The notes under the pieces are model-generated. The model made no database searches, was not told the origin of the DNA, and was given only the letters and a program-made list of their open reading frames with translations. Shown piece after piece: positions 1 to 13,939 of a stretch of 32,910 bases of DNA. The position numbers were made by a program, and so were the translations under genes. How positions within the stretch are numbered: the first letter of the stretch is position 1; every line of letters begins with the position of its first letter. The DNA comes from Halomonas sp. (GTDB taxonomy: Bacteria > Pseudomonadota > Gammaproteobacteria > Pseudomonadales > Halomonadaceae): the NCBI RefSeq assembly GCF_014859505.1, contig NZ_JACUUD010000023.1, positions 1 to 32,910 of the forward strand. Reading direction: 5' to 3'.

Positions 1-2
1 GA

Positions 3-1889
3 GGTGTGGTGATGATCCTCGGCCTCATCGGGCTGCTGATGGCCATCAACCAGACCTTCGCGCTGAAGCTGTTCGGCTTCTATCCCCTCGGCAACGCCTT
101 CCTCTACTACCTGATCGGCATCTTCCTGGCCGCGGCGCTGCTCTGCTATCCTGCCCGGGCCGCCGACACCCATCGCCTGCCCTGGTACGACTGGGCGCTG
201 GCCGCTGCCGCCCTGGGCTGTGCCGGCTACTTGGGGCTCAACGGGCTGCGCATGACCCAGGAGGGCTGGGAGTTCTTCGCCCCGGTCGAGGCGACCCTGG
301 TGGCCACCTTGACGATCCTGCTGGTGCTGGAGGGGGTGCGCCGCTGCGGTGGCTGGGCGATCTTCACGGTGGCCCTCGTCTTCGGTCTCTACCCGCTCTA
401 TGCCGGCCATATGCCGGGCTTCCTGTGGAGCAACCCCTTCGCCCTGGACGAGACGATTCGTGCCCATGTGATGGGGGCGGAGAGCATCATCGGGGTGCCC
501 ATGCAGGTGGTGGCCAACCTGATCATCGGCTTCGTGGTGTTCGGCATCGCCCTGACCATCACCGGAGGCGGCGAGTTCTTCATGAACTTCGCCACCGCCC
601 TGATGGGCCGGAGTCGCGGCGGCCCGGCCAAGGTGGCGGTGGTCTCCAGCGCCTTCATGGGTAGCCTCTCGGGCAGCGCCGTCTCCAATATCCTCACCAC
701 CGGGACCATCACCATCCCAGCCATGAAGCGCAGCGGCTATTCGCGGGAGTATGCCGCCGCCGTGGAGGCCTGCTCCTCCACCGGCGGCACCCTGATGCCG
801 CCGGTGATGGGCGCGGTGGCCTTCATCATGGCCTCCTTCCTGGGCGTCAGCTACGCCGAGGTGATGGTGGCGGCGCTGCTGCCGGCGATCCTCTTCTACC
901 TGGCGCTGCTGCTCCAGGTGGACCACTATGCGGCCCGCCAGGGGCTTCAAGGCATGCGCCCCGAGGAGATTCCGCGGGTGCTCGCCACCCTGAAGGAGGG
1001 CTGGCCCTATCTGCTCAGCCTGGCGGTGTTGATCTACATGCTGCTGGTGATGCGCCTAGAGAGCTACGCCCCCTACTATGCGACCCTGGTGCTGCTGGCA
1101 ATCTCGTTGGTCCGACGCCGGCAGCGGCTGAGTCTCACCAAGGGGTTCGATTTTCTCTATCAACTTGCCCACGGCATCGGCAACCTGGTGGCGGTGTTGG
1201 CGGGCATCGGCCTGGTGGTGGGGGGGCTCTCCTATACCGGGGTGGCCGGCTCCTTCTCCCGGGAGCTCTTGCTCTATGCCGGTGGCAGCATTCCGCTGAT
1301 GCTGGCGGCGGGGGCGGTGACCAGCTTCGTGCTGGGCATGGGCATGACGGTGAGCGCCTGCTACATCTTCCTGTCGATTCTGCTGGCGCCGGCGCTGGTG
1401 GGGGCGGGACTTGACCCTCTGGGCAGCCATCTCTTCATCCTCTACTGGGGCATGCTCTCCTACATCACCCCACCGGTGGCGCTGGCGGCGATCACCGCCG
1501 CGGGCGTGGCGGGGGCGAGTAATACCCGCACCAGCCTCCACGCGGTGCGCCTCGGCGGGGTGCTCTTCGTGCTGCCCTTCCTCTTCGTACTCAACCCGGC
1601 GCTGATCCTGCAGGGACCCCTGGATCGCATCCTGCTGTCGTCGCTCACCGCCCTTACTGCCATTTGGCTGGTAGCGGCGGCCATGGAGGGCTATCTCTAC
1701 CGGGTCGGCACGATCGGCTGGCTGCCACGCCTGCTGCTGCTGCTGGCCGCCGCTCTGCTGATCTATCCGGAGTGGCGCAGCGACCTTGTCGGCCTGACCC
1801 TGCTGGGAGGCGCCTACCTGTGGCTGGCAGGCCCCTTTCGCCGCCGGGCAGCGCTCCCGGAAGTGAGCGGGGAACAGAGGCCCGGCTGA
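3..1889 (+). CDS. TRAP transporter fused permease (4TM/12TM, DctQM-type), probably 5'-partial
   Basis: This is an integral inner-membrane permease that fuses the small (DctQ-like) and large (DctM-like) subunits of a TRAP transporter, driving ion-coupled uptake of an organic acid or similar solute. About 15 or more hydrophobic segments are visible. The family's hallmark is the glycine- and serine-rich stretch around residues 185-270 (GGGEFF, SLSGSAVSN, STGGTLMPPVMG). The reading frame stays open to the left edge, and the first visible helix lacks the short lead-in usual for the family. I therefore treat it as truncated by a few tens of residues; a GTG at position 6 is the alternative start. 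Fused TRAP permeases normally pair with a TAXI-type binding protein, which would lie upstream outside the window. The substrate cannot be read from sequence. A bidirectional terminator follows. Confidence 0.9.
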   Translation, partial: GVVMILGLIGLLMAINQTFALKLFGFYPLGNAFLYYLIGIFLAAALLCYPARAADTHRLPWYDWALAAAALGCAGYLGLNGLRMTQEGWEFFAPVEATLVATLTILLVLEGVRRCGGWAIFTVALVFGLYPLYAGHMPGFLWSNPFALDETIRAHVMGAESIIGVPMQVVANLIIGFVVFGIALTITGGGEFFMNFATALMGRSRGGPAKVAVVSSAFMGSLSGSAVSNILTTGTITIPAMKRSGYSREYAAAVEACSSTGGTLMPPVMGAVAFIMASFLGVSYAEVMVAALLPAILFYLALLLQVDHYAARQGLQGMRPEEIPRVLATLKEGWPYLLSLAVLIYMLLVMRLESYAPYYATLVLLAISLVRRRQRLSLTKGFDFLYQLAHGIGNLVAVLAGIGLVVGGLSYTGVAGSFSRELLLYAGGSIPLMLAAGAVTSFVLGMGMTVSACYIFLSILLAPALVGAGLDPLGSHLFILYWGMLSYITPPVALAAITAAGVAGASNTRTSLHAVRLGGVLFVLPFLFVLNPALILQGPLDRILLSSLTALTAIWLVAAAMEGYLYRVGTIGWLPRLLLLLAAALLIYPEWRSDLVGLTLLGGAYLWLAGPFRRRAALPEVSGEQRPG

Positions 1890-1946: not shown

Positions 1947-3155
1947 TCACCCCTCCAGGCGCTCGATCACGCAGGCGATGCCCTGTCCGACGCCGATGCA
2001 CATGGTGACCAGGGCGTAGCGGCCCCCCGAGGCCTCCAGTTGGCGCAGGGCGGTCAGAGTCAGGCGTGCCCCGGATGCGCCCAGAGGGTGCCCGATCGCG
2101 ATAGCTCCACCGTTGATGTTCAGGCGACTGTCGTCGGCCGAGAGCCCCAGCTGTTTGACGCAGCCCAGCACCTGCACCGCGAAGGCTTCATTGATCTCGA
2201 TCACGTCCATCTGATCCAGACTCAGTCCTGCCCGCTCAAGGGCCTTTCTGGAGGCAGGCACGGGACCGAGGCCCATGACCCGAGGTTCCACGCCGGCTAC
2301 GGCACCGGCCAAGAGGCGGCCCCGGGGACGTACGCCGGCACGTTCGCCGGCGGCGCGGCTGCCGACGATCAGGGCGGCGGCACCGTCGTTGAGCCCAGAG
2401 GCGTTGCCGGCGGTGACCACGCCGCCTTCGAACAGTGGAGACAGCCTACCGAGCTTGTCGGAATCGGTGCCTGGCCGTGGGTGCTCGTCCCTGTCGACCA
2501 GCAGCGGGGGTAACTTGCGACCCTGGGGTACCTCGATACCGAGGATCTCCTCGTCATAAAAGCCTCTGGCCTGGGCGTCGCCGTAGCGTGCCTGGGAGCG
2601 CGCCGCATAGGCGTCGCTCTCGGCGCGTCCCAGCCCCAGGTCATGTGCAACGTTGTCGGCGGTCTCCGGCATGCTGTGGTTGCCATAGGTCTGGGCGATC
2701 CATGGATTGGGGAAGCGCGAGCCGATCACGGTGTCGTAGAGTGGCTGGTTGCGGGCGAAGGGTGAATCTGCCTTGCCCAGCACATAGGGAGCACGCGACA
2801 TGGACTCAACGCCGCCGGCCAGGAACAGTTGCCCCTCACCGCTGCGGATCGCCCGGGCGGCGTCCATCACCGCGGCCAGGCCGCTGCCACAAAGGCGGTT
2901 GACGGTCTGGCCGGAGACCTCGACCGGCAGGCCGGCCAGCAGGGCCCCGTGGCGGGCCACGTTGCGAGAATCCTCACCGGCCTGGTTGGTGCAGCCGGCC
3001 AGCACCTCCTCGTAGTCTTCGGGGGCGAAACCGTTGCGCTGGACCAGGGCCCTCAGAGTCCTGCCCAGCAGGTCGTCAGGACGCAAAGCGGAGAGGCTGC
3101 CGCCGTGGCGGCCGAATGGTGTACGAACTCCGTCGTAGATCAAAGCGTCTTGCAT
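1947..3155 (-). CDS. Acetyl-CoA C-acyltransferase (thiolase), PcaF/PaaJ-like
   Basis: Thiolase II that cleaves a 3-oxoacyl-CoA with CoA to acetyl-CoA and a shortened acyl-CoA. At 402 residues it has the family's usual length. The nucleophilic Cys is C89 in NRLCGSG, the His motif GHPLGASG places H356, and the C-terminal Cys C386 lies in MCIGVGQG. The N-terminal pattern (RTPFGRHGG, CTNQAGEDSRNVAR) and the central SMPETADNVA are typical of 3-oxoadipyl-CoA thiolases as I remember them, so a dicarboxylyl-CoA substrate is plausible but not proven. An AGGAGC Shine-Dalgarno precedes the ATG. It lies 13 bp downstream of the 3-hydroxyacyl-CoA dehydrogenase on the same strand, so the two probably share a transcript and perform consecutive beta-oxidation steps. 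Confidence 0.9.
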   Translation of the reverse strand: MQDALIYDGVRTPFGRHGGSLSALRPDDLLGRTLRALVQRNGFAPEDYEEVLAGCTNQAGEDSRNVARHGALLAGLPVEVSGQTVNRLCGSGLAAVMDAARAIRSGEGQLFLAGGVESMSRAPYVLGKADSPFARNQPLYDTVIGSRFPNPWIAQTYGNHSMPETADNVAHDLGLGRAESDAYAARSQARYGDAQARGFYDEEILGIEVPQGRKLPPLLVDRDEHPRPGTDSDKLGRLSPLFEGGVVTAGNASGLNDGAAALIVGSRAAGERAGVRPRGRLLAGAVAGVEPRVMGLGPVPASRKALERAGLSLDQMDVIEINEAFAVQVLGCVKQLGLSADDSRLNINGGAIAIGHPLGASGARLTLTALRQLEASGGRYALVTMCIGVGQGIACVIERLEG

Positions 3156-3168
3156 GGGATAGCTCCTG

Positions 3169-4719
3169 TCAGATTGGTTGGGCCGTGGTGGTCAGCGGCA
3201 GACCCAGGGCGGCGCGTCGGCGCAGCCAGGGGCTGGGGCGGTAGCGGGGATCGCGGGTGGCAGCGAAGAGGTTGTCGAGAATCGTAAGGATGCGCCGGCT
3301 GCCGTAGTGGTCGCCCATGGCCAGCGGGCCATGGGGATAGCCAAGCCCCAGTTCCACGGCGCGGTCGAGAGTTGTTGGCTCAGCCACGCCCTGCTGGGCG
3401 ATCTCGGCGCCGACATTGACGATGCAGGCGACGACGCGCTGGAGCACGAAGCCGTTGCTGTCGTGGAGAGGACTTACCGGCGTGCCATCGTCGCCGAGCA
3501 GAGCCCAGGCGGCATCCCGATAGCGGGTCTCGGTAGCCGGAGTGGTCATCAGACTGCGGCGGCGATCGAGGCCCGCCAGCATCTCGACGGCCACGCAGCG
3601 CTGGGCATCGAGTCCCTGGCGGAGGGCGGCTGTGGTGGTGTCTTCGCCCAGCGGAGTGATCAGGCACAGTGACTCTCCGGCTGGCCGCTCGCCCCGGTCC
3701 AGCGGCCAGCCGGCAGCGGAAACGAGCGCAGAAAGTGCCTGGGCGGCCTCGGGGTCTTCGGGGCTTACCCATACGGGCAGGGGAGCAGCTTCCGGCGGAG
3801 TCGGTTCCGCCGCCACCACCGCTTGGCCATCCTCGTAGCGATAGAAGCCCTCGCCGCTCTTGCGGCCGAGCAGGCCGGCGGTAAGGCGTTGACGCGTGAT
3901 TGGGGATGGGCGGAAGCGGGGCTCCTCGTAGTACTGGTGATAGATGGACTCCATCACTGCGTGGGAGACATCGAGTCCGGTCAGGTCGAGCAGGCTGAAG
4001 GGGCCCATGCGGAAACCGCCCTGATCGACAAGGAGGCGGTCGATGGTGGTGTGATCGGCCACCCCCTCGCTGAGCAGTCGCAGCGCTTCGGTTCCGTAGG
4101 CGCGACCGGCGTGATTGACCAGGAAGCCTGGCGTATCGGTGGCGCGGGCGGTGAAGTGGCCCATGGCCTGTCCCAGCGCCTCGACGCGCTCGGCGACATC
4201 CGCCGTGGTCCGCAGGCCTGGTATGACCTCTACGATCTTCATCAGCGGCACGGGGTTGAAGAAGTGAAAGCCGATCACTCGCTGCGGAAGCTGGCAGGCG
4301 GCGGCGATGGCGGTCACCGATAGCGACGAGGTGTTGGTGGCGAGAACGGCCTGGTCACCCAGAATCCCTTCGAGGCGCATGAACAGTTCCTGCTTGGCCT
4401 GGAGGTTCTCGGCGATGGCTTCCACCACGATCTCGCAGCCTGCCAGGTCCGTCAGATCGTCGGCTTCCTGAAGTCGTTCTCGATAGGATGCCAGGTCTTT
4501 CTCGCTCAAGCGTCCCTTCGTCACCCCGCGTGTCCAGACACCGGTGATGAAGCTCCTGGCCTCATCCACCGCGCCCATGCGGGCATCATGGAGGCAAACC
4601 TCGAGGCCGGCCTGTGCGGCTAACTGGGCGATACCGCGTCCCATGGCGCCGGTTCCGACAATGCCTAGACGGCGGAATGGCAGGGGCGGCGTGACTTCCG
4701 AGGGGGAGGGGGGCGACAT
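3169..4719 (-). CDS. 3-hydroxyacyl-CoA dehydrogenase, PaaH/HbdA-like
   Basis: NAD-dependent oxidation of an L-3-hydroxyacyl-CoA to the 3-oxoacyl-CoA, feeding the thiolase encoded just downstream. The N-terminal Rossmann motif is GTGAMG at residues 22-27. The catalytic His region reads IGFHFFNPVPLMKIVE. There is a first C-terminal 3HCDH domain (around TPGFLVN) and a second, degenerate 3HCDH domain near the end (GLGYPHGPLAMGD). At 516 residues it resembles the long PaaH type. No crotonase (hydratase) domain is fused to it. The frame extends upstream to 5667, but I chose the ATG at 4719 because AAGGAG lies 9 bp before it, homology begins only about 16 residues later, and the upstream part is antisense to the acyl-CoA dehydrogenase. 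It is transcribed from the divergent region 4720-4929. Confidence 0.9.
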   Translation of the reverse strand: MSPPSPSEVTPPLPFRRLGIVGTGAMGRGIAQLAAQAGLEVCLHDARMGAVDEARSFITGVWTRGVTKGRLSEKDLASYRERLQEADDLTDLAGCEIVVEAIAENLQAKQELFMRLEGILGDQAVLATNTSSLSVTAIAAACQLPQRVIGFHFFNPVPLMKIVEVIPGLRTTADVAERVEALGQAMGHFTARATDTPGFLVNHAGRAYGTEALRLLSEGVADHTTIDRLLVDQGGFRMGPFSLLDLTGLDVSHAVMESIYHQYYEEPRFRPSPITRQRLTAGLLGRKSGEGFYRYEDGQAVVAAEPTPPEAAPLPVWVSPEDPEAAQALSALVSAAGWPLDRGERPAGESLCLITPLGEDTTTAALRQGLDAQRCVAVEMLAGLDRRRSLMTTPATETRYRDAAWALLGDDGTPVSPLHDSNGFVLQRVVACIVNVGAEIAQQGVAEPTTLDRAVELGLGYPHGPLAMGDHYGSRRILTILDNLFAATRDPRYRPSPWLRRRAALGLPLTTTAQPI

Positions 4720-4766: not shown

Positions 4767-4783
4767 ATTCTGCATTGCGAAAT
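4767..4783 (-). promoter_or_regulatory. Operator candidate, site 1 of a shared 17-bp pseudo-palindrome
   Basis: Read on the minus strand this is ATTTCGCAATGCAGAAT. It is a pseudo-palindrome centred on one base, with 6 of 8 positions symmetric (ATTTCGCA against ATTCTGCA). It lies about 50 bp upstream of the 3-hydroxyacyl-CoA dehydrogenase start, overlapping a possible -10 (TATTAT on the minus strand, 4763-4768). A near-identical copy sits at 9552-9568. The one-base-centre symmetry is reminiscent of IclR-type operators, which is an inference only. Confidence 0.55.
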
Positions 4784-4849
4784 TGAATTCTGTTTATTGA
4801 CTCCCATCCTAGGCTATGCAAAAGTGCCTGGCAATAGATGCGAACTACA

Positions 4850-4866
4850 ATTCTACTATGCAGAAT
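4850..4866 (+). promoter_or_regulatory. Operator candidate, site 2 of the shared pseudo-palindrome
   Basis: ATTCTACTATGCAGAAT shares its whole right half (ATGCAGAAT) with sites 1 and 3. It forms its own inverted repeat with arms CAATTCT and AGAATTG (4849-4855 and 4863-4869 approximately). It lies 63 bp upstream of the acyl-CoA dehydrogenase start and overlaps possible -10 hexamers TACAAT (4846-4851) and TACTAT (4854-4859), a position suited to repression of the plus-strand operon. Confidence 0.5.
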
Positions 4867-4929
4867 TGGTTCTTCTGGCGTTGCCGACGTCGTGAGACCC
4901 GTCTGCCACTCGACCTGTGAGGACACGCC

Positions 4930-6081
4930 ATGATTCGCGATCCGGAACTCCTGAATCAGCTTCTCGATACCATTTCTCGTTTCGTGCGCGAACGACTGAT
5001 TCCCAACGAGGCACGCCTGGCCGAGGACGATGCCGTTCCCCCCGAGTTGCTCGCGGAGATGAAGGAGATGGGGTTGTTCGGCCTGTCGATCCCCGAAGAA
5101 TTCGGCGGACTCGGCTTGACCATGGAGGAGGAGGCGCTGGTGGCCATGGAGATCGGCAAGACGTCTCCGGCTTTCCGCTCGGTCTTTGGCACCAACAACG
5201 GCATCGGCGCTCAGGGCATTCTGATCGACGGTACTCCGGAGCAGAAAGCACGTTACGTGCCGCCACTGGCCACCGGCGAGATTCTGAGTTCGTTCTGTCT
5301 CACCGAGCCTGACGTCGGTTCCGATGCGGCGAGCCTGCGCACCACGGCCGTGCGCGACGGCGATCACTACATCCTCAATGGCACCAAGCGCTACATCACC
5401 AATGGTCCCGAGGCGGATCTGTTCACCGTGATGGCACGAACAGATCCTGACAACAAGGGTGCCAGTGGCATTTCGGCCTTTATCGTCGAAGGCAGCACCC
5501 CCGGACTCGAGCGCGGGCCTGCCGACAACAAGATGGGTCAGAAGGGCGCCCATACCTGCGACATCATCTTCAATGATTGCCGGGTGCCGGCCGAAAACAT
5601 CATCGGCGGGCGCGAGGGGCAGGGCTTCAAGACAGCGATGAAGGTACTCGACCGCGGCCGCCTGCATATTTCCGCCGTCTGCGTCGGTGTCGCCGAACGG
5701 CTGGTCGAGGAGTCGCTCCGCTATGCGATGGAGCGCCAGCAGTTCGGTGGGCCGCTATCCAGCCATCAGCTGATTCAGGCGATGCTCGCCGACAGCAAGA
5801 CCGAGGCATATGCCGGCCGCACCATGGTCCTCGACGCAGCACGCCGCAAGGATGCCGGCGAGGATGTCTCGACCCTGGCCTCATGCGCCAAGCTGTTCTG
5901 TTCCGAGATGGTTGGCCGTGTTGCCGACCGTGCGGTTCAGATCCATGGTGGGGCGGGTTACATGGCGGAGTACGCCGTCGAGCGTTTCTACCGCGACGTG
6001 CGGCTGTTCCGCATTTATGAGGGCACCACCCAGATTCAGCAGCTGGTGATCGCCCGAAATATGGTGCGGGAGGCGTCCTGA
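4930..6081 (+). CDS. Acyl-CoA dehydrogenase
   Basis: FAD enzyme that introduces the 2,3-double bond into an acyl-CoA and passes electrons to ETF, whose genes lie 5 kb downstream. At 383 residues it matches the short-chain family. It shows the FAD/acyl motif FCLTEPDVGSD around residues 122-132, the ITNG loop around 156-159, and a C-terminal RIYEGTTQIQ in which E364 is the expected catalytic base. The exact chain length or branching preference cannot be read. The ATG follows GTGAGGACACGCC, a modest Shine-Dalgarno. It is the first gene of a four-gene chain: its TGA overlaps the ATG of the ligase by one base. Two operator candidates and the divergent 3-hydroxyacyl-CoA dehydrogenase gene lie upstream. 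Confidence 0.92.
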   Translation: MIRDPELLNQLLDTISRFVRERLIPNEARLAEDDAVPPELLAEMKEMGLFGLSIPEEFGGLGLTMEEEALVAMEIGKTSPAFRSVFGTNNGIGAQGILIDGTPEQKARYVPPLATGEILSSFCLTEPDVGSDAASLRTTAVRDGDHYILNGTKRYITNGPEADLFTVMARTDPDNKGASGISAFIVEGSTPGLERGPADNKMGQKGAHTCDIIFNDCRVPAENIIGGREGQGFKTAMKVLDRGRLHISAVCVGVAERLVEESLRYAMERQQFGGPLSSHQLIQAMLADSKTEAYAGRTMVLDAARRKDAGEDVSTLASCAKLFCSEMVGRVADRAVQIHGGAGYMAEYAVERFYRDVRLFRIYEGTTQIQQLVIARNMVREAS

Positions 6082-7682
6082 TGGGCCTTTCCGTAACACA
6101 TCGGGCTCCTGACGAGCGCATCTTTGGCCGTCTGGCGAGTGAACTGGTGGCAGAACTGCCCGAGCGGTTGAGTCACCGCGTGCTCGACAATGCTCGGCGC
6201 ATTCCCGATCGGCCGGCACTGGTCGATGGTGAAGTCCGCTGGAGCTATGCCGATCTGGGGAGCGAGATTCTCAAGGCCCGGAAGTGGCTGGTCTCGCTGG
6301 GGATTCGACCCGGCGATCGTCTGATGACGGTCGGAGAGAACAGTCGCGCCCTGGTGGTGCTGTTGCTGGCGGCCAGCGAACTGGATGCCTGGGTGGCGAT
6401 CGTCAACTCGCGCCTGACGGACAAGGAAATCGACCTGATTCGCGATAACTGTCTGCCCCGGCGCACCTTCTATACCAGTGAGGCGTCCCCCGATGCGGAA
6501 GCGCACGGCCGTCGCCACGGTGCCGAGCGTCTGTCGCATCCCAGCCTGGGCGCGCTGCGGGTAGGGACGCTGGCCGACAGCGATGCGGAACCGGTGGCGG
6601 CCAGTGGCGCCGAGCAGGTCGCGGCGATGATCTACACCTCCGGGACCACCGGCACGCCCAAGGGCGTCATGCTCACTCACCGCGGCATCCTCTATATCGC
6701 CTCGATCTCGGGTGGCATGCGCCATCTCAGTGAGGGGCAGCGCGTCTACGGGGTGCTGCCCATGTCCCATGTTTTCGGTCTCTCCTCGGTGTGCATGGGA
6801 TCGCTCTACAACGGCGCTTGCCTCTACACGGTGCCGCGCTTCGATGCGGCGATGCTGCTGGATGCCCTGCAGCGGGAACGCATCACCGTCCTGCAGGGCG
6901 TTCCGGCCATGTACGCGCGAACCCTGGAGTTTGTGCGCCGTAAGGGTCAGGCCCTGGAAATTCCCGCACTGATCTATATCTCCGCAGGCGGCTCTCCTCT
7001 GGATGCTGATATCAAGGGGAGAGTGGAGGCTGCTTTCGGCTTGACCCTGCACAACGGCTACGGGTTGACCGAGGCCAGTCCGACCATCAGCCAGACCCGG
7101 ATCGACGATCGTCACGCCAGCAATACCGTGGGACGTGTCCTGCCGCTGCTGGAGTATCGCCTCGAGCCCTTGGGCGCCAGCGGCGATGCCGCCGATGACG
7201 GTGACGAGGTGGGTGAGCTCTGGGTGCGGGGCCCCAATGTGATGAAGGGCTACTTTCGTCAGCCCGAGGCGACGCGAGCCTGCCTCACTGAGGATGGCTG
7301 GCTCAACACCGGCGACATTGCACGCGTCGACGAAGATGACCAGCTCTATATCGTGGGGCGCAGCAAGGAGCTCATCATCCGCTCCGGGTTCAACATCTAT
7401 CCTCCCGATGTGGAGGCGGTGATCAACGAGCATCCCGATGTGACGCTGTCGGCCGTGGTGGGGCGTCAGGTATCGGGCAACGAGGAAGTGGTGGCCTTCG
7501 TGCAGTGTGAGCCTGGCGCAGACCTCGAGGAGGCGGCGCTTCGGACGTTCATTGCCGAGCGGCTGGCACCCTACAAGCGGCCCTCGCAGATCGTGCTGGT
7601 GGAAAGTCTACCCGCGACGGCCAGCGGCAAGATCCTCAAGGGGCGCCTGCGCGACATGGCGCAGGGGAAGGACCCGTCATGA
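6081..7682 (+). CDS. AMP-forming acyl-CoA ligase (ANL superfamily)
   Basis: Activates a carboxylic acid to its CoA thioester at the cost of ATP to AMP, the likely entry step for the pathway encoded around it. Motifs appear in the expected order: P-loop YTSGTTGTPKG (residues 185-195), GYGLTEASP, the GELWVRGP and GWLNTGDIA segment, the hinge GRSKELIIRSGFNIYP, and near the C-terminus ASGKILKGR with K517 as the adenylation lysine. Its 533 residues are normal for the family. The start overlaps the previous stop (TGATG), so translational coupling is likely. The acid substrate is unknown. A dicarboxylate or an aromatic or medium-chain acid would fit the PcaF-like thiolase nearby. Confidence 0.92.
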   Translation: MGLSVTHRAPDERIFGRLASELVAELPERLSHRVLDNARRIPDRPALVDGEVRWSYADLGSEILKARKWLVSLGIRPGDRLMTVGENSRALVVLLLAASELDAWVAIVNSRLTDKEIDLIRDNCLPRRTFYTSEASPDAEAHGRRHGAERLSHPSLGALRVGTLADSDAEPVAASGAEQVAAMIYTSGTTGTPKGVMLTHRGILYIASISGGMRHLSEGQRVYGVLPMSHVFGLSSVCMGSLYNGACLYTVPRFDAAMLLDALQRERITVLQGVPAMYARTLEFVRRKGQALEIPALIYISAGGSPLDADIKGRVEAAFGLTLHNGYGLTEASPTISQTRIDDRHASNTVGRVLPLLEYRLEPLGASGDAADDGDEVGELWVRGPNVMKGYFRQPEATRACLTEDGWLNTGDIARVDEDDQLYIVGRSKELIIRSGFNIYPPDVEAVINEHPDVTLSAVVGRQVSGNEEVVAFVQCEPGADLEEAALRTFIAERLAPYKRPSQIVLVESLPATASGKILKGRLRDMAQGKDPS

Positions 7683-8110
7683 GCCATTCCTTGCCGTTGT
7701 CGTGGCGGATGGTGGGCTTTCAGGAGCTGCTGGGAGTTCGTGTCGTCGACTGGGAGCCTGATCGGGTGACGCTCGAGCTGACAGTCGAGCCGCATCATCT
7801 CAACCGTAGCGGTATCGTGCACGGTGGCGTTCTCTGTACCTTGCTGGATGTGGCCTTGAGCTTTTCGGGCCTGCACTGCGAGGCGCCAGATCAGCTGCGC
7901 AAGGCGATGACGCTGTCGCTCTCCACCACCTTCGTTGCGCCAGCCAGGGGAGAAGCGCTGCGCGCTATCGGTCGGCTGGAAGGGGGAGGGCGCAGTACCT
8001 TCATGGCCAGTGGCAAGGTATTCGACAGCCAGGGCAACCTCGTGGCGATGGGGGAAGGGTCCTTTCGTCGGCGTCGGGGAAGCGAGGCCGAGGAGGGAGA
8101 GAGCCAGTGA
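7679..8110 (+). CDS. PaaI-family hotdog thioesterase
   Basis: Small acyl-CoA thioesterase of the hotdog fold, 143 residues. The diagnostic segment is HGGVLCTLLDVALS: HGG at residues 48-50 begins the central helix and D57 is the likely general base or nucleophile position of the PaaI group. Such enzymes usually release CoA from dead-end thioesters that accumulate in CoA-dependent catabolism, which would be its role beside the ligase. The ATG overlaps the ligase stop by four bases (ATGA), and its own stop overlaps the next gene, so it is embedded in one operon. The last 15 or so residues are a charged tail with no obvious role. Confidence 0.85.
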   Translation: MSHSLPLSWRMVGFQELLGVRVVDWEPDRVTLELTVEPHHLNRSGIVHGGVLCTLLDVALSFSGLHCEAPDQLRKAMTLSLSTTFVAPARGEALRAIGRLEGGGRSTFMASGKVFDSQGNLVAMGEGSFRRRRGSEAEEGESQ

Positions 8111-9489
8111 GCCGGGATCGCCTGAGGGTATCCCTGCTGCTGGTCGTGACGCTGGCAACCCTGGCAGATCTGGTGTTCGTCAGCACCCAGGCCCAGTGGT
8201 TGGCCATGGTCGCTCTGGGAGGGTATCTGCTCACTCTGCGTGGTCTCTCGTCCATGGCCCTTACCCTGTTGGGCGCTGTGGTCCTGCTCAGTCTGGTAGC
8301 GCTGTGGCATCACTCCGCCCCCTTGGCGCTGCTGCGCGAGGCGGCGGGACGCTTCGCCTTCTTCGCGACCTTTCTGGTCGCCCTGGGCCTGCTTCGGCTA
8401 CCCGCCTATCGGTCGAGGCTGGTGAAGCGCTGCGGGCATGCCATGCTGCTTCAGCCACCCAGCCAGCGTTATCCGATCCTGTCACTGGGCTCGTCGCTGT
8501 TCGGCATCATCCTCAACATCGGCGTGCTGAATCTCGTGGCCGCCATGATAGAGAAGAGCAATACCCTGGCGGCCGCTCAGGGGCGTCTGTGGGTCCAGCA
8601 GGCAAGACAGCGGCGCATGATGCTTGCGCTGCTGCGCGGTTTTGCACTGGCGCCACTGGTGTCGCCTATGGGCATCGGCATGGCGGTTGTGCTCTCGAGC
8701 ATGGAGGGCCTGCGCTGGATCGAGCTGGCGCCCTACGCCCTGGGTGCGGCGCTGCTGCTGTTTCTGGTCGGGTGGGGGGTCGATCGCGTCACCGGCCCAC
8801 GAATGCAGCAGGCCAGGGAGCATGCGGCTCCCTCGCTGAGACCCCTGGGGCGTTTCTCCCTGTTGCTGCTCGCGCTGGTGGCGCTGATCTTCTCTCTCGC
8901 CTGGGGGCTCGATCTTCAGCTGCCCACCGCCGTGCTGTTGGGGGCGCCCCTGGGGGCTTTCCTGTGGCTCTGCTGGCAGCTCCGTGGCCATGGCATGGCG
9001 GGAATGCCGGCTGCCACCGTTGCCCTGCATCGCGGGCTGCCCAGGCTGGTTTCACCGGCGTCCAACGAGATCGTGGTGCTGGGGGCTGCAGGCTATCTGG
9101 GGCATCTCTGCGTGGGACTAGTGAATGGTTCGGCCCTGGCCGGAAGCCTCGGCTTCCTGTCATCGCTGGGGGCAGGCACGGCGGTCATCGCCATGCTGCT
9201 CGTGGCCGTGCTGGCGCAGGTTGGCATCAATCCCATCGTCAGCGTCACCCTGCTGGCAGGCATCCTGCCGACATTGGGCATCGATGGGCTGTCGTTGCCC
9301 GTTCTTGCGGTCTCGCTGCTGGTGGGGTGGACGCTGGCGCTCATGTCATCCCCCATGACGGTCTCGATGCTGATTCTCTCCAGGTTCACTGGTGTTTCAT
9401 CGCTGCGGATCGGTTATCGCTGGAACGGCCTTTTTCTCTGTCTCGCCATGCCGCTATTGGCGGTTTGGTTCCTGACAGCACGTTTTTGA
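8107..9489 (+). CDS. Multi-pass membrane protein of unknown function, putative transporter
   Basis: I do not recognise this family with confidence. The 460-residue product has about 11-13 hydrophobic segments, and a cytoplasmic-looking basic stretch in the first half (KSNTLAAAQGRLWVQQARQRR). The second half has helix-breaking motifs such as GQ/A-VGINPIVSVTLLAG and LALMSSPMTVS, which recall the re-entrant loops of ion-transporter superfamily permeases (DASS, ArsB and relatives). That is a loose resemblance and not an assignment. It starts with GTG overlapping the thioesterase stop (GTGA), so it is the last gene of the dehydrogenase-ligase-thioesterase operon. Uptake or export of the pathway's acid is the simplest guess. 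No signal peptide is separable from the first helix. Confidence 0.75.
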   Translation: MSRDRLRVSLLLVVTLATLADLVFVSTQAQWLAMVALGGYLLTLRGLSSMALTLLGAVVLLSLVALWHHSAPLALLREAAGRFAFFATFLVALGLLRLPAYRSRLVKRCGHAMLLQPPSQRYPILSLGSSLFGIILNIGVLNLVAAMIEKSNTLAAAQGRLWVQQARQRRMMLALLRGFALAPLVSPMGIGMAVVLSSMEGLRWIELAPYALGAALLLFLVGWGVDRVTGPRMQQAREHAAPSLRPLGRFSLLLLALVALIFSLAWGLDLQLPTAVLLGAPLGAFLWLCWQLRGHGMAGMPAATVALHRGLPRLVSPASNEIVVLGAAGYLGHLCVGLVNGSALAGSLGFLSSLGAGTAVIAMLLVAVLAQVGINPIVSVTLLAGILPTLGIDGLSLPVLAVSLLVGWTLALMSSPMTVSMLILSRFTGVSSLRIGYRWNGLFLCLAMPLLAVWFLTARF

Positions 9490-9551
9490 GCGCGACAATT
9501 GGCGCTTGACTGTGGTCAGGCCGTTCAGCACCATAATATAAATAGAATCAA

Positions 9552-9568
9552 GTTTCGCAATGCAGAAT
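9552..9568 (+). promoter_or_regulatory. Operator candidate, site 3 upstream of glutaryl-CoA dehydrogenase
   Basis: GTTTCGCAATGCAGAAT matches site 1 at 16 of 17 positions. Over a wider 30-bp window (9540-9569 against the minus strand of 4766-4795) I count 26 identities. It lies 50 bp before the chosen gcdH start and 15 bp after the AT-rich stretch CATAATATAAATAG that probably contains the -10 region, so a bound repressor would block initiation. Confidence 0.6.
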
Positions 9569-9618: not shown

Positions 9619-10800
9619 ATGTCCCAGATGCCCGCCTTCCACTGGCAAGACCCGCTGCTCCTCGACCAGCAGCTCACCGACGAGGAGCGCATGGTGCAGC
9701 AGAGCGCTGCCCAGTTCGCCGCCGACAAGCTCGCGCCCCGCGTGCTGGAGGCCTTCCGCCACGAGCAGACCGACCCGGCCATCTTCCGCGAGATGGGCGA
9801 GACCGGCCTGCTGGGAGCCACCATCCCCGAGCAGTATGGTGGCAGCGGCCTCAACTACGTCTGCTACGGGCTTATCGCCCGTGAGATCGAGCGCGTCGAC
9901 TCCGGCTACCGTTCCATGATGAGCGTGCAGTCCTCCCTGGTGATGGTGCCGATCAACGAATTCGGCAACGAGGCCACCAAGCAGAAGTACCTGCCGAAGC
10001 TGGCCAGCGGTGAGTGGATCGGCTGCTTCGGTCTCACCGAGCCCAACCACGGCTCCGACCCCGGCGGCATGGTGACCCGCGCCCGCAGGGTCGACGGCGG
10101 CTATCGCCTCACCGGCAGCAAGATGTGGATCACCAACAGCCCCATCGCCGACGTCTTCGTGGTGTGGGCCAAGGACGACGAGGGCGATATCCGCGGCTTC
10201 GTGCTGGAGAAAGGCTGGGAGGGGCTCTCCGCCCCGGCGATCCACGGCAAGGTGGGCCTGCGCGCCTCGATCACCGGCGAGATCGTCATGGACAGCGTCT
10301 TCGTGCCCGAGGAGAACATGTTCCCCGAGGTGCTCGGCCTCAAGGGGCCCTTCACCTGTCTCAACTCGGCGCGCTATGGCATCGCCTGGGGGGCGCTGGG
10401 TGCCGCCGAGGACTGCTGGCACACCGCCCGCCAGTACACCCTGGACCGCCAGCAGTTCGGTCGGCCGCTGGCCGCCAACCAGCTGATCCAGAAGAAGCTG
10501 GCCGACATGCAGACCGATATCTGCCTGGCCCTGCAGGGCTGCCTGCGCCTGGGCCGCATGAAGGACGAGGGCACCGCCGCGGTGGAGATCACCTCGATCA
10601 TGAAGCGCAACAGCTGTGGCAAGGCGCTGGATATCGCCCGCCTGGCCCGCGACATGCTGGGCGGCAACGGCATCAGCGACGAGTTCGGGGTGGCGCGCCA
10701 CCTGGTCAACCTCGAGGTGGTCAACACCTACGAGGGCACCCACGACGTTCACGCGCTGATCCTGGGGCGGGCCCAGACCGGCCTCCAGGCCTTCTGCTAG
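9619..10800 (+). CDS. gcdH: Glutaryl-CoA dehydrogenase
   Basis: Oxidises and decarboxylates glutaryl-CoA to crotonyl-CoA and CO2, donating electrons to ETF. This step is central to lysine, tryptophan and glutarate breakdown. The 393-residue product carries the GCDH-specific string [13 protein letters not shown], in which R98 corresponds to the glutarate-binding Arg of the human enzyme, followed by [15 protein letters not shown]. The C-terminus is [19 protein letters not shown] with E372 as catalytic base. I chose the ATG at 9619 because AGAGGAA lies 8 bp upstream; ATGs at 9595 and 9598 precede that Shine-Dalgarno. It heads the operon gcdH-etfB-etfA and has the shared operator in its leader. 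Family assignment is firm; other acyl-CoA dehydrogenases lack this combination. Confidence 0.93.
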
Positions 10801-10844: not shown

Positions 10845-11594
10845 ATGAAAGTCCTCGTCGCGGTCAAACGCGTCATCGACTACAACGTGAAGATCCGGGT
10901 CAAGCCGGATCACTCCGACGTCGACCTCACCAACGTCAAGATGGCCATGAACCCCTTCTGCGAGATCGCCGTGGAAGAGGCGGTGCGCCTGAAGGAAAAG
11001 GGCATCGCCACCGAGGTGGTCGCCGTGACCATCGGTCCCAAGGCCGCCCAGGAGCAGCTGCGCACTGCGCTGGCGCTGGGCGCCGACCGTGCCATCCACG
11101 TCGAGACCGATGAGCGCGTCGAGTCGCTGGGCGCCGCGAAGGCGCTGGCCAGGCTGGTGGAAGAGGAGCAGCCGGGCCTGGTGATCCTCGGCAAGCAGGC
11201 CATCGACACTGACAACAACCAGACCGGCCAGATGCTGGCGGCCCTCACCGGCCTGCCCCAGGGCACCTTCGCCTCCGAGATCAAGGTCGAAGGCGAGAAG
11301 CTCCAGGTCACCCGCGAGGTCGACGGCGGCCTGCAGACCGTCGAGCTGAGCCTGCCGGCCATCGTCACCGCCGACCTGCGCCTCAACGAGCCGCGTTACG
11401 CCAAGCTGCCCGACATCATGAAGGCCAAGAAGAAGCCGCTGGACGTGAAGACCCCGGCGGATCTCGGCATCGAGGTGGCCTCGAAGGTCAAGCTGCTCAA
11501 GGTCGAGCCGCCGGCCGAGCGAAAGGGTGGCGTCAAGGTGGGCTCCGTGGACGAGCTGATCGATAAACTCAAGAACGAAGCCAAAGTGCTTTGA
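10845..11594 (+). CDS. etfB: Electron transfer flavoprotein beta subunit
   Basis: Beta subunit of the soluble heterodimer that takes electrons from acyl-CoA dehydrogenases and delivers them to the membrane ETF-ubiquinone oxidoreductase. It binds AMP structurally. The product has 249 residues and begins [17 protein letters not shown], the usual start of the family. [15 protein letters not shown] is part of the signature, and [27 protein letters not shown] is split here as VDGGLQ and [16 protein letters not shown]. The frame runs open upstream through gcdH, but homology and a GGAG Shine-Dalgarno fix the ATG at 10845. It lies 44 bp after gcdH. Its stop falls inside the first copy of a short direct repeat preceding etfA. 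Confidence 0.96.
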
Positions 11595-11622: not shown

Positions 11623-12549
11623 ATGAGCATCCTGGTACTCGCCGAACATCACGACGGCGCCCTGGCCGGCGCCACCGCCCATGTGGTAGCGGCCGCCCAA
11701 GCCATCGGGGGCGATATCGATATCCTGGTGGCCGGTGAAGGCGTCGGCGCCATCGCCGAGGCCGCCGCCAAACTCGACGGCGTGAGCCGTGTGCGCGTGG
11801 CCGACCACGCCGCCTACGCCCATCTGCTGGCCGAGCCCACCGCGGCGCTGATCGCGGAGCTGGCCGGCGACTACACCCATCTGCTGGCCTGTGCCTCCAC
11901 CACCGGCAAGAACGTGCTGCCCCGGGTGGCCGCGCTCAAGGACGTGGGGCAGATCTCCGAGATCATCAGCGTGGAATCACCGGACACCTTCAAGCGCCCG
12001 ATCTACGCCGGCAACGCCATCGCCACGGTGCAGAGCGAGGACGCCCTCAAGGTGATCACCGTGCGCGCCACCGGCTTCGATGCGGTGGGCGAGGGTGGAA
12101 GTGCTGCCATCGAGGCGGTGGACTTTGTCGCCGACAATGCCCAGTCCACCTTCGTCAAGGAGGAGCTGGCCAAGTCCGACCGTCCCGAGCTGGGTGCCGC
12201 CAAGGTGGTGATCTCCGGCGGCCGCGGCATGGGCAGCGGCGAGAACTTCACGCTGCTCGACGGCATCGCCGACAAGCTTGGCGCGGCCATCGGCGCCTCT
12301 CGTGCCGCGGTGGACGCCGGCTTCGTGCCCAATGACATGCAGGTGGGCCAGACCGGCAAGATCGTGGCGCCCGAGCTCTACATCGCCGTGGGCATCTCGG
12401 GGGCCATCCAGCACCTGGCCGGCATGAAGGACTCCAAGGTGATCGTCGCCATCAACAAGGACGAGGAGGCGCCGATCTTCCAGGTCGCCGACTATGGCCT
12501 GGTCGCCGATCTCTTCCAGGCCCTGCCGGAGCTCGAGGAGAAGCTGTAG
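11623..12549 (+). CDS. etfA: Electron transfer flavoprotein alpha subunit
   Basis: Alpha subunit of ETF, carrying the FAD that shuttles electrons from glutaryl-CoA dehydrogenase and other acyl-CoA dehydrogenases to the quinone pool. The 308-residue product begins [12 protein letters not shown]. The C-terminal FAD domain shows [49 protein letters not shown] and [16 protein letters not shown], all hallmarks of the family. AAAGGAG lies 8 bp before the ATG at 11623; an in-frame alternative 18 bp upstream would lie before that Shine-Dalgarno. It is the last gene of the gcdH-etfB-etfA operon and is followed after 34 bp by a strong intrinsic terminator. Confidence 0.96.
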
Positions 12550-12724: not shown

Positions 12725-13939
12725 CTACAGGCGACTGGCAAGCAGGGCGGTGAGCTCGTCGTCACTGAGCACCAGCGGGTTGGTTTTCATGCTGCCGCCT
12801 CGCGAATTGGCGACCACGCGGGGGAGGTCGCTTTCCTGCATGCCGAACGCTCCCAGTCGCGGCATTTCCAGGCGGCGGGTCCAGTCGCGCAGGGTAGCCA
12901 CCAGGGCGTTGCAGGCCTGTGGGTCATCCAGGTCGGGGGAATCGCCGAGCAGGCGGCCGACCCTGGCATATTTCGCCAGGGCCTCGGGGGCTTGCCCGCG
13001 TTCGTGCAGTGCGGCGATGTTCACCGCGGTGGCCTCGGCCAGCAGGGTGCCGCACACCACGCCGTGGGGAGCGGGGAAGAAGGCGCCCAGTGGCGACGCC
13101 AGGCCGTGCACCGAGCCCAGGCCCGCCTGGGCCAGGGTGATGCCGGACATCAGCGATGCATAGGCGATCCCCGGATAGCCCTCATCGGCATGCCGGGCGT
13201 CGCCGTCCAGTGCGGTCCAGAAGCCCTGGCAGAAGGCCTGCATGCCGGACCAGGCCAGTGCATCCGTAAGCGGACTGGCGTTGGCGGAGACATAGGACTC
13301 CAGCAGTTGGGTGAAGGCATCCATGCCGTTGGCGGCCAGCTGGTCCGCGGGGCAGCCGGCCAGCAGGTTCGGGTCGACCAGGGCGACGCGGGCCATCAGC
13401 CGGTCGTCCCGGAACGACTTCTTGAAGCCCTCAGGTCCTCGCTCGCTGAGCACGGCGTTGCGGGTCGCCTCGCTGCCGGTCCCCGCCGTGGTGGGCACGG
13501 CGATCAGCGGGGCGGCGGGCCCGGGGTAGGGCAGGCCCCGGCCCACCCCCTCGAGATGGTCCATGACCGAGGTGCCGGTATGCAGCAGGCCGGCCACGGC
13601 CTTGCCGGCATCGAGGGCGCTGCCGCCGCCGATGGCCACCACGACGTCGATCCCCGCCCCGCGGTGCGCCGCCACGACCTCATCCACCAGGCGAGGAGAG
13701 GGTTCTCCGGCGACGCTGACGTGCTGCCAGCTCACCCCCTGCTCCGCCAGCGCCGCCTGGAGCTCGGGCCAGCGGGGAGAGCCGACGAAGGAACGCCGGC
13801 CGGTGACCAGCAGGATGCGCCTGCCGTGCCGGGCGATCAGCGCCGGCAGGCGTTCAAGGGTCTGGCGGCCGAAGTGGATCTCGGGAAGGGGGGAGAGGCG
13901 GAAGGCGCCGATCTCTTCGAGACGTGGCGTGTGCGGCAT
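12725..13939 (-). CDS. Iron-containing (group III) alcohol dehydrogenase family protein
   Basis: NAD(P)-dependent metal alcohol dehydrogenase of the FucO/YqhD/maleylacetate reductase superfamily. The 404-residue product shows the dinucleotide motif GGGSALDAGK, the GTGSEATRNAVL segment, and a metal site from NGMDAFTQLLE, SVHGLASPLGAF and APHGVVCG. In FucO the first segment provides Asp and His (DxxxH); here the second position is Gln (DAFTQ), a variant I associate with uncharacterised members of this family, so metal choice and substrate are open. I chose the ATG at 13939 over the longer open frame because homology begins here and a promoter-like pair lies 35-65 bp upstream. It is transcribed alone, convergent with etfA. 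Confidence 0.85.
   Translation of the reverse strand: MPHTPRLEEIGAFRLSPLPEIHFGRQTLERLPALIARHGRRILLVTGRRSFVGSPRWPELQAALAEQGVSWQHVSVAGEPSPRLVDEVVAAHRGAGIDVVVAIGGGSALDAGKAVAGLLHTGTSVMDHLEGVGRGLPYPGPAAPLIAVPTTAGTGSEATRNAVLSERGPEGFKKSFRDDRLMARVALVDPNLLAGCPADQLAANGMDAFTQLLESYVSANASPLTDALAWSGMQAFCQGFWTALDGDARHADEGYPGIAYASLMSGITLAQAGLGSVHGLASPLGAFFPAPHGVVCGTLLAEATAVNIAALHERGQAPEALAKYARVGRLLGDSPDLDDPQACNALVATLRDWTRRLEMPRLGAFGMQESDLPRVVANSRGGSMKTNPLVLSDDELTALLASRL

Follow-up and report, generated by a model that had tools for sequence, protein, structure and literature searches.

The stretch of DNA analysed here (the window: 32,910 nucleotides, contig NZ_JACUUD010000023.1 of assembly GCF_014859505.1) comes from Halomonas sp. 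and carries three copies of a palindromic element, placed before two divergent operons and before gcdH-etfBA, the operon of glutaryl-coenzyme A (CoA) dehydrogenase and an electron transfer flavoprotein (ETF). We propose that these elements are operators of one repressor of the IclR family, which would control a regulon for the breakdown of dicarboxylates, pimelate and adipate among them, and would be released by a metabolite of the pathway, and we give this reading a probability of roughly two in three. The operator sites, and the identity of the regulator as the IclR protein encoded on contig C210 of the same genome, are strongly supported by sequence comparison; binding, repression, the inducer, the bridging of operators and the substrates are what we infer from it. 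We would class the system with the IclR regulons that use three-box operators, a known type of regulation.

The three 17-bp sites reported in the initial annotation are found at 4767-4783 on the minus strand (ATTTCGCAATGCAGAAT) and, on the plus strand, at 4850-4866 (ATTCTACTATGCAGAAT) and 9552-9568 (GTTTCGCAATGCAGAAT). The agreement described between the first and the third also holds, with 16 of 17 bases identical and 26 of 30 over a wider stretch (the latter counted by eye), and this wider agreement arises because a third 7-bp box precedes each palindrome. Even though the sites are real, the 17-bp pseudo-palindrome is therefore not the unit it was taken to be: the operator is a 27-bp element of three boxes, in a 7-3-7-3-7 arrangement whose box order and 3-bp spacing are kept at all three places. 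We name these operators Op1, Op2 and Op3 and their boxes A, B and C, and give each sequence in the reading direction of the gene that it precedes. The distances from the sites to the start codons are 47, 63 and 50 bp (with 9619 taken as the start of gcdH), close to the 50-65 bp first stated, and the site centres lie 56-72 bp before the start codon.

The motif combines a group 1-like pair with a group 2 pair, its boxes alternating in direction, which is the three-box form of IclR operators. Group 1, group 2 and three-box forms have been published, with predictions for 32 orthologous groups (Suvorova and Gelfand 2021, PMC8222616); PcaU of Acinetobacter is the experimental case for the three-box form, and the usual site range given there, -20 to -80, includes the centres measured here. 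The centres AAT, TAT and AAT and the outer positions largely fit the group 1 consensus, box C (GCAGAAT) departs from it at one position, and GCGAAAT, GCAGAAT and GCAAAAC occur alike among relatives. The IclR-type symmetry suggested at the outset holds for the motif as a class, which matches the published forms. The Corynebacterium PcaR motif (GTTCGC-N3-GCGAAC) and the TphR motif are close to these operators. The targets here read as genes for aliphatic dicarboxylates and not for aromatics, and the consensus position written TTYC is T or C here. None of the openly accessible papers listed by our literature search described an IclR protein as the regulator of this cluster, though the group may already stand in the supplement of PMC8222616.

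In the window, with up to three mismatches allowed, the patterns match at the three sites only; the observed count was reached in one of 100 window shuffles for the asymmetric pattern and in 11 of 100 for the plain palindrome. The genome scan proposed in the initial annotation (3.36 Mb in 272 contigs, expectations assuming independent bases at the G+C content of the window) gave a divided answer. With mismatches, the 17-mer occurs at random frequency: RTTYYGCNNNGCRRAAY is found exactly only at sites 1 and 3 (0.49 expected), with one mismatch at 11 places against 17 expected, and with two at 184 against 203 for the backward pattern. Loosely matched, the 17-mer therefore gives no signal across the genome, and on its own site 2 would not be conspicuous. 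The exact 27-bp pattern, by contrast, stands far above expectation, occurring twice (sites 1 and 3) against 0.001 expected; up to two mismatches yield four distinct places, namely sites 1, 2 and 3 and one on contig C184, where about one is expected, and up to three yield 13 matches against nine for the backward control. Because the sites and their relatives were used to derive the patterns, these expectations flatter them, and conservation is the stronger test. A stretch at C210:1939-1965, between a LysR gene and that of a 589-aa acyl-CoA dehydrogenase, is kept in the close relative G014; with three mismatches its score is at chance level, and it is not claimed as a fifth operator.

Conservation was surveyed in 90 genomes of the genus, 31 of which have a locus with the cluster, and in at least 80 public loci with the acyl-CoA dehydrogenase gene acad and its neighbours. 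Exact 17-mers number 69 in the 31 cluster genomes (backward control 23) and 15 in the 59 others (control 28), and matches to the three-box pattern of at least 18/21 number 102, at 86 distinct places in 36 loci. Nine other exact 17-mers of relatives were inspected: three precede a crotonase-type gene (L239, L240, L241), and six (L242-L247) lie within or beside genes, with no link seen.

Conservation upstream of orthologues had been named in the initial annotation as the test of its regulon, and it is found for Op1 and Op2 in 31 of 31 genus loci and for Op3 in all six loci with gcdH-etfBA. The palindrome of Op1 scores 14/14 in 25 loci and 13/14 in six, with a 7/7 box A in 30 of the 31; that of Op2 scores 14/14 in 22, 13/14 in six and 12/14 in three. 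The distance between both operators (84 bp in 15 loci, 83 in nine, 85 in four, 82 in two and 87 in one) is held while the intergenic gap varies between 169 and 241 bp. When the 31 intergenic regions are aligned, the information content is 1.24-1.76 bits per column at the operators and in the promoter block, with the maximum at 4793-4826, and 0.46 and 0.76 in the two leaders.

Before gcdH-etfBA, Op3 scores 13-14 of 14 with a 7/7 box A in all six loci. Where etfBA stands there without gcdH, five of nine genus loci score 13-14 of 14 upstream, as do 11 of 12 public Halomonad loci with etfB but no gcdH there, a set partly overlapping that of the genus (the twelfth, L029, scores 9 from a misplaced start). 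The operator therefore also stands before etfBA alone, and in the group of the window gcdH lies in between; gcdH may have been inserted there or may have been lost elsewhere. Among the 31 loci of the Op3 survey, three (G001, G024, G064) are without the membrane-protein gene in the stretch and 13 without etfB there; of the latter, G017 and G060 have a 14/14 operator and the other 11 score 10-12 of 14. In G017 (L209, reverse strand near 13885), Op3 and its promoter remain and no etfBA follows, which has the look of an operator orphaned by a deletion.

The regulator gene had been placed outside the window, and contig overlap and synteny locate the candidate there, on C210. The last 24 bp of this contig are the first 24 bp of the window, and in G014 the contiguous order is iclR, lysR, acyl-CoA dehydrogenase, CoA-transferase III, TAXI, TRAP permease and thiolase, followed by the cluster with the 3-hydroxyacyl-CoA dehydrogenase gene hcdh, then acad, acyl-CoA synthetase, thioesterase, membrane protein, gcdH, etfB and etfA. 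The iclR gene therefore starts about 5.3 kb to the left of the window, with a 7-kb module before the thiolase gene. Its product has an IclR_C effector domain (PF01614, 79.6 bits, cut-off 24) and an HTH_IclR domain (PF09339, 56.8 bits, cut-off 22). TIGR02431 (PcaR/PcaU/PobR) is its best NCBIfam model, at 136.1 bits against a cut-off of 284.75, so by this model the protein is not a member of that group.

This gene accompanies the cluster closely. It adjoins the thiolase gene in 27 of 30 testable genus loci, no gene being mapped between the two, the module standing in between in the other three (G000, G014, G086), and is on another contig in the 31st (G037); among the public Halomonad loci it stands beside the thiolase gene in 21 of 22, and the remaining contig is too short. 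Of the 90 genomes, 31 have iclR at E<=1e-100 and 30 have acad at E<=1e-200, every one of the 30 being among the 31; the extra iclR genome, G064, is 85% complete with acad cut by a contig end; weaker homologues raise these counts to 34 (iclR, E<=1e-60) and 33 (acad, E<=1e-120). An iclR orthologue also stands directly before acad in Janthinobacterium, Massilia, Rhodobacter and other alpha- and betaproteobacteria, in most cases behind a motif that scores 12-14 of 14. Among 58 non-Halomonad loci, 25 have an iclR homologue and 33 have none; the three-box motif is present in 19 of the former and nine of the latter (p = 2.6e-4), or in 10 of the latter (p = 6e-4) if L083, with a poor match about 1.1 kb before acad, is counted.

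The initial annotation had suggested looking for an autoregulated regulator gene carrying the motif; a good candidate site of this kind is seen before the regulator gene outside the Halomonadaceae and not in the genome of the window. In the 25 non-Halomonad loci, the palindrome before iclR scores 14/14 in two (L033, L073), 12-13 in 18 and 9-11 in five, and G042 has a three-box match of 19/21 before iclR. With no good own-genome site before iclR, autoregulation gave no lead to the regulator, and it was synteny that pointed to the gene. The Halomonad upstream regions inspected share a TATGCGATA-type stretch ahead of iclR, which may be the extended -10 of this gene.

From the sequence and its conservation, two divergent promoters that overlap each other are predicted between Op1 and Op2 (Table 1). 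Op1 shares one base with the predicted -10 of its own gene, whereas Op3 begins 7 bp and Op2 14 bp downstream of theirs, so that a bound protein would block there, in line with the repressor-like positions first noticed. According to our proposal, the C210 IclR protein would bind all the operators, with a dimer on boxes B-C and a further subunit on box A in support. Without inducer, it would sit at or just downstream of the -10 and block transcription, and a dicarboxylate or an intermediate of the CoA pathway would free it from the operators. Op1 and Op2, most often 84 bp or eight turns apart around the divergent promoters, would probably be bridged by a tetramer, a form that IclR proteins can take (PMC8222616). 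In seven other genomes, the promoter of the TRAP-pim operon (found on C184 in the genome of the window) has the operator plus an upstream palindrome (13/14), at a distance of 96 bp (four genomes), 97 bp (two genomes) or 85 bp (one genome); in the own genome this promoter has no good upstream palindrome (best 10/14). Spacings of 82-87 bp and of 96-97 or 85 bp, near eight and nine turns, suggest bridging by a tetramer.

Table 1. Features of the proposed regulon; positions refer to the window unless a contig is given
Feature	Position	Strand	Sequence or size	Remarks
Op1	4767..4793	-	ACAGAAT-TCA-ATTTCGC-AAT-GCAGAAT	Serves hcdh-thiolase operon; site 1 + box A; 0 mismatches to three-box pattern (own genome)
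Op2	4840..4866	+	GCGAACT-ACA-ATTCTAC-TAT-GCAGAAT	Serves acad operon; site 2 + weaker box A; 2 mismatches (own genome)
Op3	9542..9568	+	ATAGAAT-CAA-GTTTCGC-AAT-GCAGAAT	Serves gcdH-etfBA; site 3 + box A; 0 mismatches (own genome)
Fourth operator	C184:259-285			Two mismatches; follows TTGACA-N18-TACTAT; precedes TRAP/PimC-PimD-like operon
acad promoter (predicted)	4797..4825	+	TTGACT-N17-AAAAGT	TTGAC in 31/31 intergenic regions; -10 called by eye
hcdh promoter (predicted)	4793..4821	-	TTGCAT-N17-AATAAA	By eye; overlaps acad promoter on opposite strand; same conserved block
gcdH promoter (predicted)	9506..9534	+	TTGACT-N17-CACCAT	TTGAC and CAYCAT recur in 6/6 gcdH loci
iclR (candidate regulator)	C210:99-914		271 aa	IclR family; starts about 5.3 kb left of window
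Fused TRAP permease gene, 3' part	1..1889	+		Begins on C210; last gene of 7-kb module iclR-to-thiolase
3-oxoadipyl-CoA thiolase	1947..3155	-		NCBIfam equivalog NF006001 654.2 bits, cut-off 622
hcdh, 3-hydroxyacyl-CoA dehydrogenase	3169..4719	-	516 aa	NF006124 676 bits, cut-off 508; PaaH equivalog below cut-off
acad, acyl-CoA dehydrogenase	4930..6081	+		First of + strand operon; Pfam
Acyl-CoA synthetase (AMP-binding)	6081..7682	+		Pfam PF00501/PF13193
Hotdog thioesterase	7679..8110	+		Pfam 4HBT
Membrane protein	8107..9489	+	460 aa	Predicted fold of dicarboxylate/Na+ symporters, TRAP permeases
gcdH, glutaryl-CoA dehydrogenase	9619..10800	+		PDB 3gnc E 5e-226, 753 bits, residues 13-400
etfB	10845..11594	+		Pfam ETF
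etfA	11623..12549	+		Pfam ETF, ETF_alpha

Several observations weigh against repression by a single IclR protein at these sites. Op2 and the C184 site each have two mismatches, a level at which about one chance match per genome is expected; box A of Op2 is weak (4-6 of 7 in the 31 genus loci); the box GCAGAAT departs from the group 1 consensus (GKTYCRYW3-4RYGRAMC) at the G of RYGRA; and Op3 is poor or unrecognised (9-12 of 14) in four of the nine etfBA-only loci. Conservation equal to that of the operators is also seen in the gap between the -10 and Op2 (1.48 bits) and around the ribosome-binding site and start of acad (1.50 bits), and the site before iclR is not good in the own genome, with no exact site in 21 Halomonad loci (best 9-13 of 14). 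As for the bridging, the spacing between Op1 and Op2 may simply come from a fixed promoter geometry, and Op3 has no partner palindrome upstream. Finally, two placements are activator-like: Op1 also sits just upstream of the acad -35, and the site that precedes the crotonase-type gene of G012, G048 and G016 is likewise upstream of the -35, its boxes in reverse order relative to the gene, an arrangement that differs from that of the three operators in the window.

The same regulator and the same operators could thus work by activation, or in a dual mode, with the inducer-bound protein activating from sites just upstream of the -35, which for acad would be Op1. The IclR family includes activators and dual regulators (PMC8222616), and where alpha- and betaproteobacteria have iclR ahead of acad, a TTGAC box follows directly on the three-box site. 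The crotonase-type gene of G012, G048 and G016 (L239, L240, L241) has an exact palindrome that ends 14-15 bp before TTGAC, and a second, downstream palindrome that scores 13/14 at 87 bp in G048 and 11/14 in G012 and G016. The -10 of acad (AAAAGT) is also a poor match. Against this, the -10 precedes Op2, Op3 and the C184 operator, so that a protein bound to any of them would block, and a second, upstream palindrome is lacking at gcdH (in six loci the best scores are 9-10 of 14). We regard activation as clearly less likely than repression, if worth keeping in view.

Much less probable is that the sites belong to another regulator. The genome has three IclR genes, and the PcaR-like one of contig C169 has in its own upstream stretch a similar tandem motif, GTTCGTATAGCGAAC and GTTTTGCATTGCGAAC. 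This candidate was rejected on its distribution, since it is found in 76 of the 90 genomes irrespective of the cluster and is absent at E<=1e-80 from two cluster genomes, G012 and G017, both of which keep the operators; in addition, its matches in public loci are weak (about 25-32% identity), and most of them are cross-matches with the C210 orthologue. A third gene, that of contig C57 (L099), was rejected as well, with no relaxed-palindrome match in its own locus and no cluster link seen there. As a separate observation, the two C169 motifs (L100, upstream of 1147) resemble the dicarboxylate operators so much that cross-talk between the two systems is conceivable. A chance or non-regulatory repeat is barely credible: the mismatched 17-mers at chance level and the shuffles that match the plain palindrome would allow it, but conservation, spacing and co-occurrence with iclR speak against it, and among the 86 distinct three-box places, mapped against the queried genes only, a single one falls inside a gene.

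The initial annotation had spoken of a local regulon of acyl-CoA catabolism. The regulon would not be only local, given the fourth operator on C184, and by its gene content the generic acyl-CoA catabolism is better read as alpha,omega-dicarboxylate beta-oxidation. The enzyme set is best read as a nearly complete route of this kind, ending in glutaryl-CoA dehydrogenase and ETF, because a thiolase above its cut-off, GcdH, a CoA ligase, a protein with a carrier fold and the C184 operon come together. The thiolase is below the cut-off of the pcaF model TIGR02430 (552.5 against 597), and GcdH below that of the listed NCBIfam glutaryl-CoA dehydrogenase model, of the Acd type (217 against 470). The C184 operon encodes a TAXI-TRAP transporter, a crotonase-type protein and, as relatives of PimC and PimD, two acyl-CoA dehydrogenases, one of which (C184:5016-6203) scores 473.5 bits with the PimC model TIGR03204, below its cut-off of 623.85.

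In the proposed route, dicarboxylates would enter through the TRAP transporter of C184 and a second putative dicarboxylate carrier, and would then be activated by the CoA ligase. Beta-oxidation would follow through the acyl-CoA dehydrogenase, the PimC/PimD-like dehydrogenase and crotonase-type hydratase of C184, the 3-hydroxyacyl-CoA dehydrogenase and the 3-oxoadipyl-CoA thiolase, and odd chains would yield glutaryl-CoA for glutaryl-CoA dehydrogenase with its ETF. The putative carrier is the 8107-9489 protein, without a match in Pfam or NCBIfam and kept in the cluster with 44-93% identity in 16 relatives. Its AlphaFold2 model (predicted local distance difference test score, pLDDT, 85.6) aligns in VIA-align with ArsB, VcINDY, NaDC3, NaCT and SiaQM at Z 22-27 over about 360-390 residues, and it is possibly an unnamed family of dicarboxylate carriers.

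The module between iclR and the thiolase gene (C210, L102, 965-6262, and window 1-1889) encodes a LysR protein, the AidB-like 589-aa acyl-CoA dehydrogenase, a CoA-transferase III, TAXI and the fused TRAP permease. The nearest relatives of this CoA-transferase are succinate-glutarate and mesaconate transferases, below cut-off.

Gene clusters of similar content include the pim operon of Rhodopseudomonas and the dca genes of Acinetobacter, which have in common PimC/PimD-like proteins, a hydratase, a thiolase and an acyl-CoA dehydrogenase. Contrary to these, the genes here are split over several operons, and the PimC model is below its cut-off. In Acinetobacter sp. ANC 4204 (L074, 4023-13038), iclR, a CoA-transferase III gene (caiB), thiolase, hcdh and the enoyl-CoA hydratase gene ech diverge from acad and the gene for ETF-quinone oxidoreductase, and the divergent region holds the palindrome TACCGCACAGCGGTA.

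Other regulators are known for such pathways. GcdR of Pseudomonas putida, like the regulator proposed here, controls glutaryl-CoA dehydrogenase, but it belongs to another family, LysR, and responds to glutarate; poor growth of this organism on pimelate is likely due to a lack of gcdH induction (PMC10870600). Here, in contrast to P. putida, one operator type precedes both gcdH and the beta-oxidation genes that act before it. For the same kind of pathway in betaproteobacteria, random barcode transposon sequencing (RB-TnSeq) points to LysR, PcaR and FadP regulators, among them a PcaR homologue that responds to adipate and glutarate, and fitness phenotypes on pimelate and azelate are recorded for GcdH homologues (PMC12543098); in the parts of that source covered, no dedicated IclR for a dicarboxylate beta-oxidation cluster was found.

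More tentatively, we would extend the proposal to a dedicated IclR for aliphatic dicarboxylates across gamma-, beta- and alphaproteobacteria, with in-phase operator pairs bridged around promoters and, in the lineage of the window, gcdH placed under an etfBA-type operator, so that odd chains would induce glutaryl-CoA breakdown without a glutarate sensor, plus an unnamed carrier family; taken as a whole, this is rather less likely to hold than to fail. The conserved operator spacing makes the bridging by IclR directly testable. What was an unlabelled repeat becomes a candidate regulon, for which a regulator can be named and which comprises four operators and a dicarboxylate route that is nearly complete. 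Dicarboxylates are plastic monomers. The operator type that gcdH shares with the upstream genes would represent a natural solution to the pimelate problem, and possibly a dicarboxylate biosensor.

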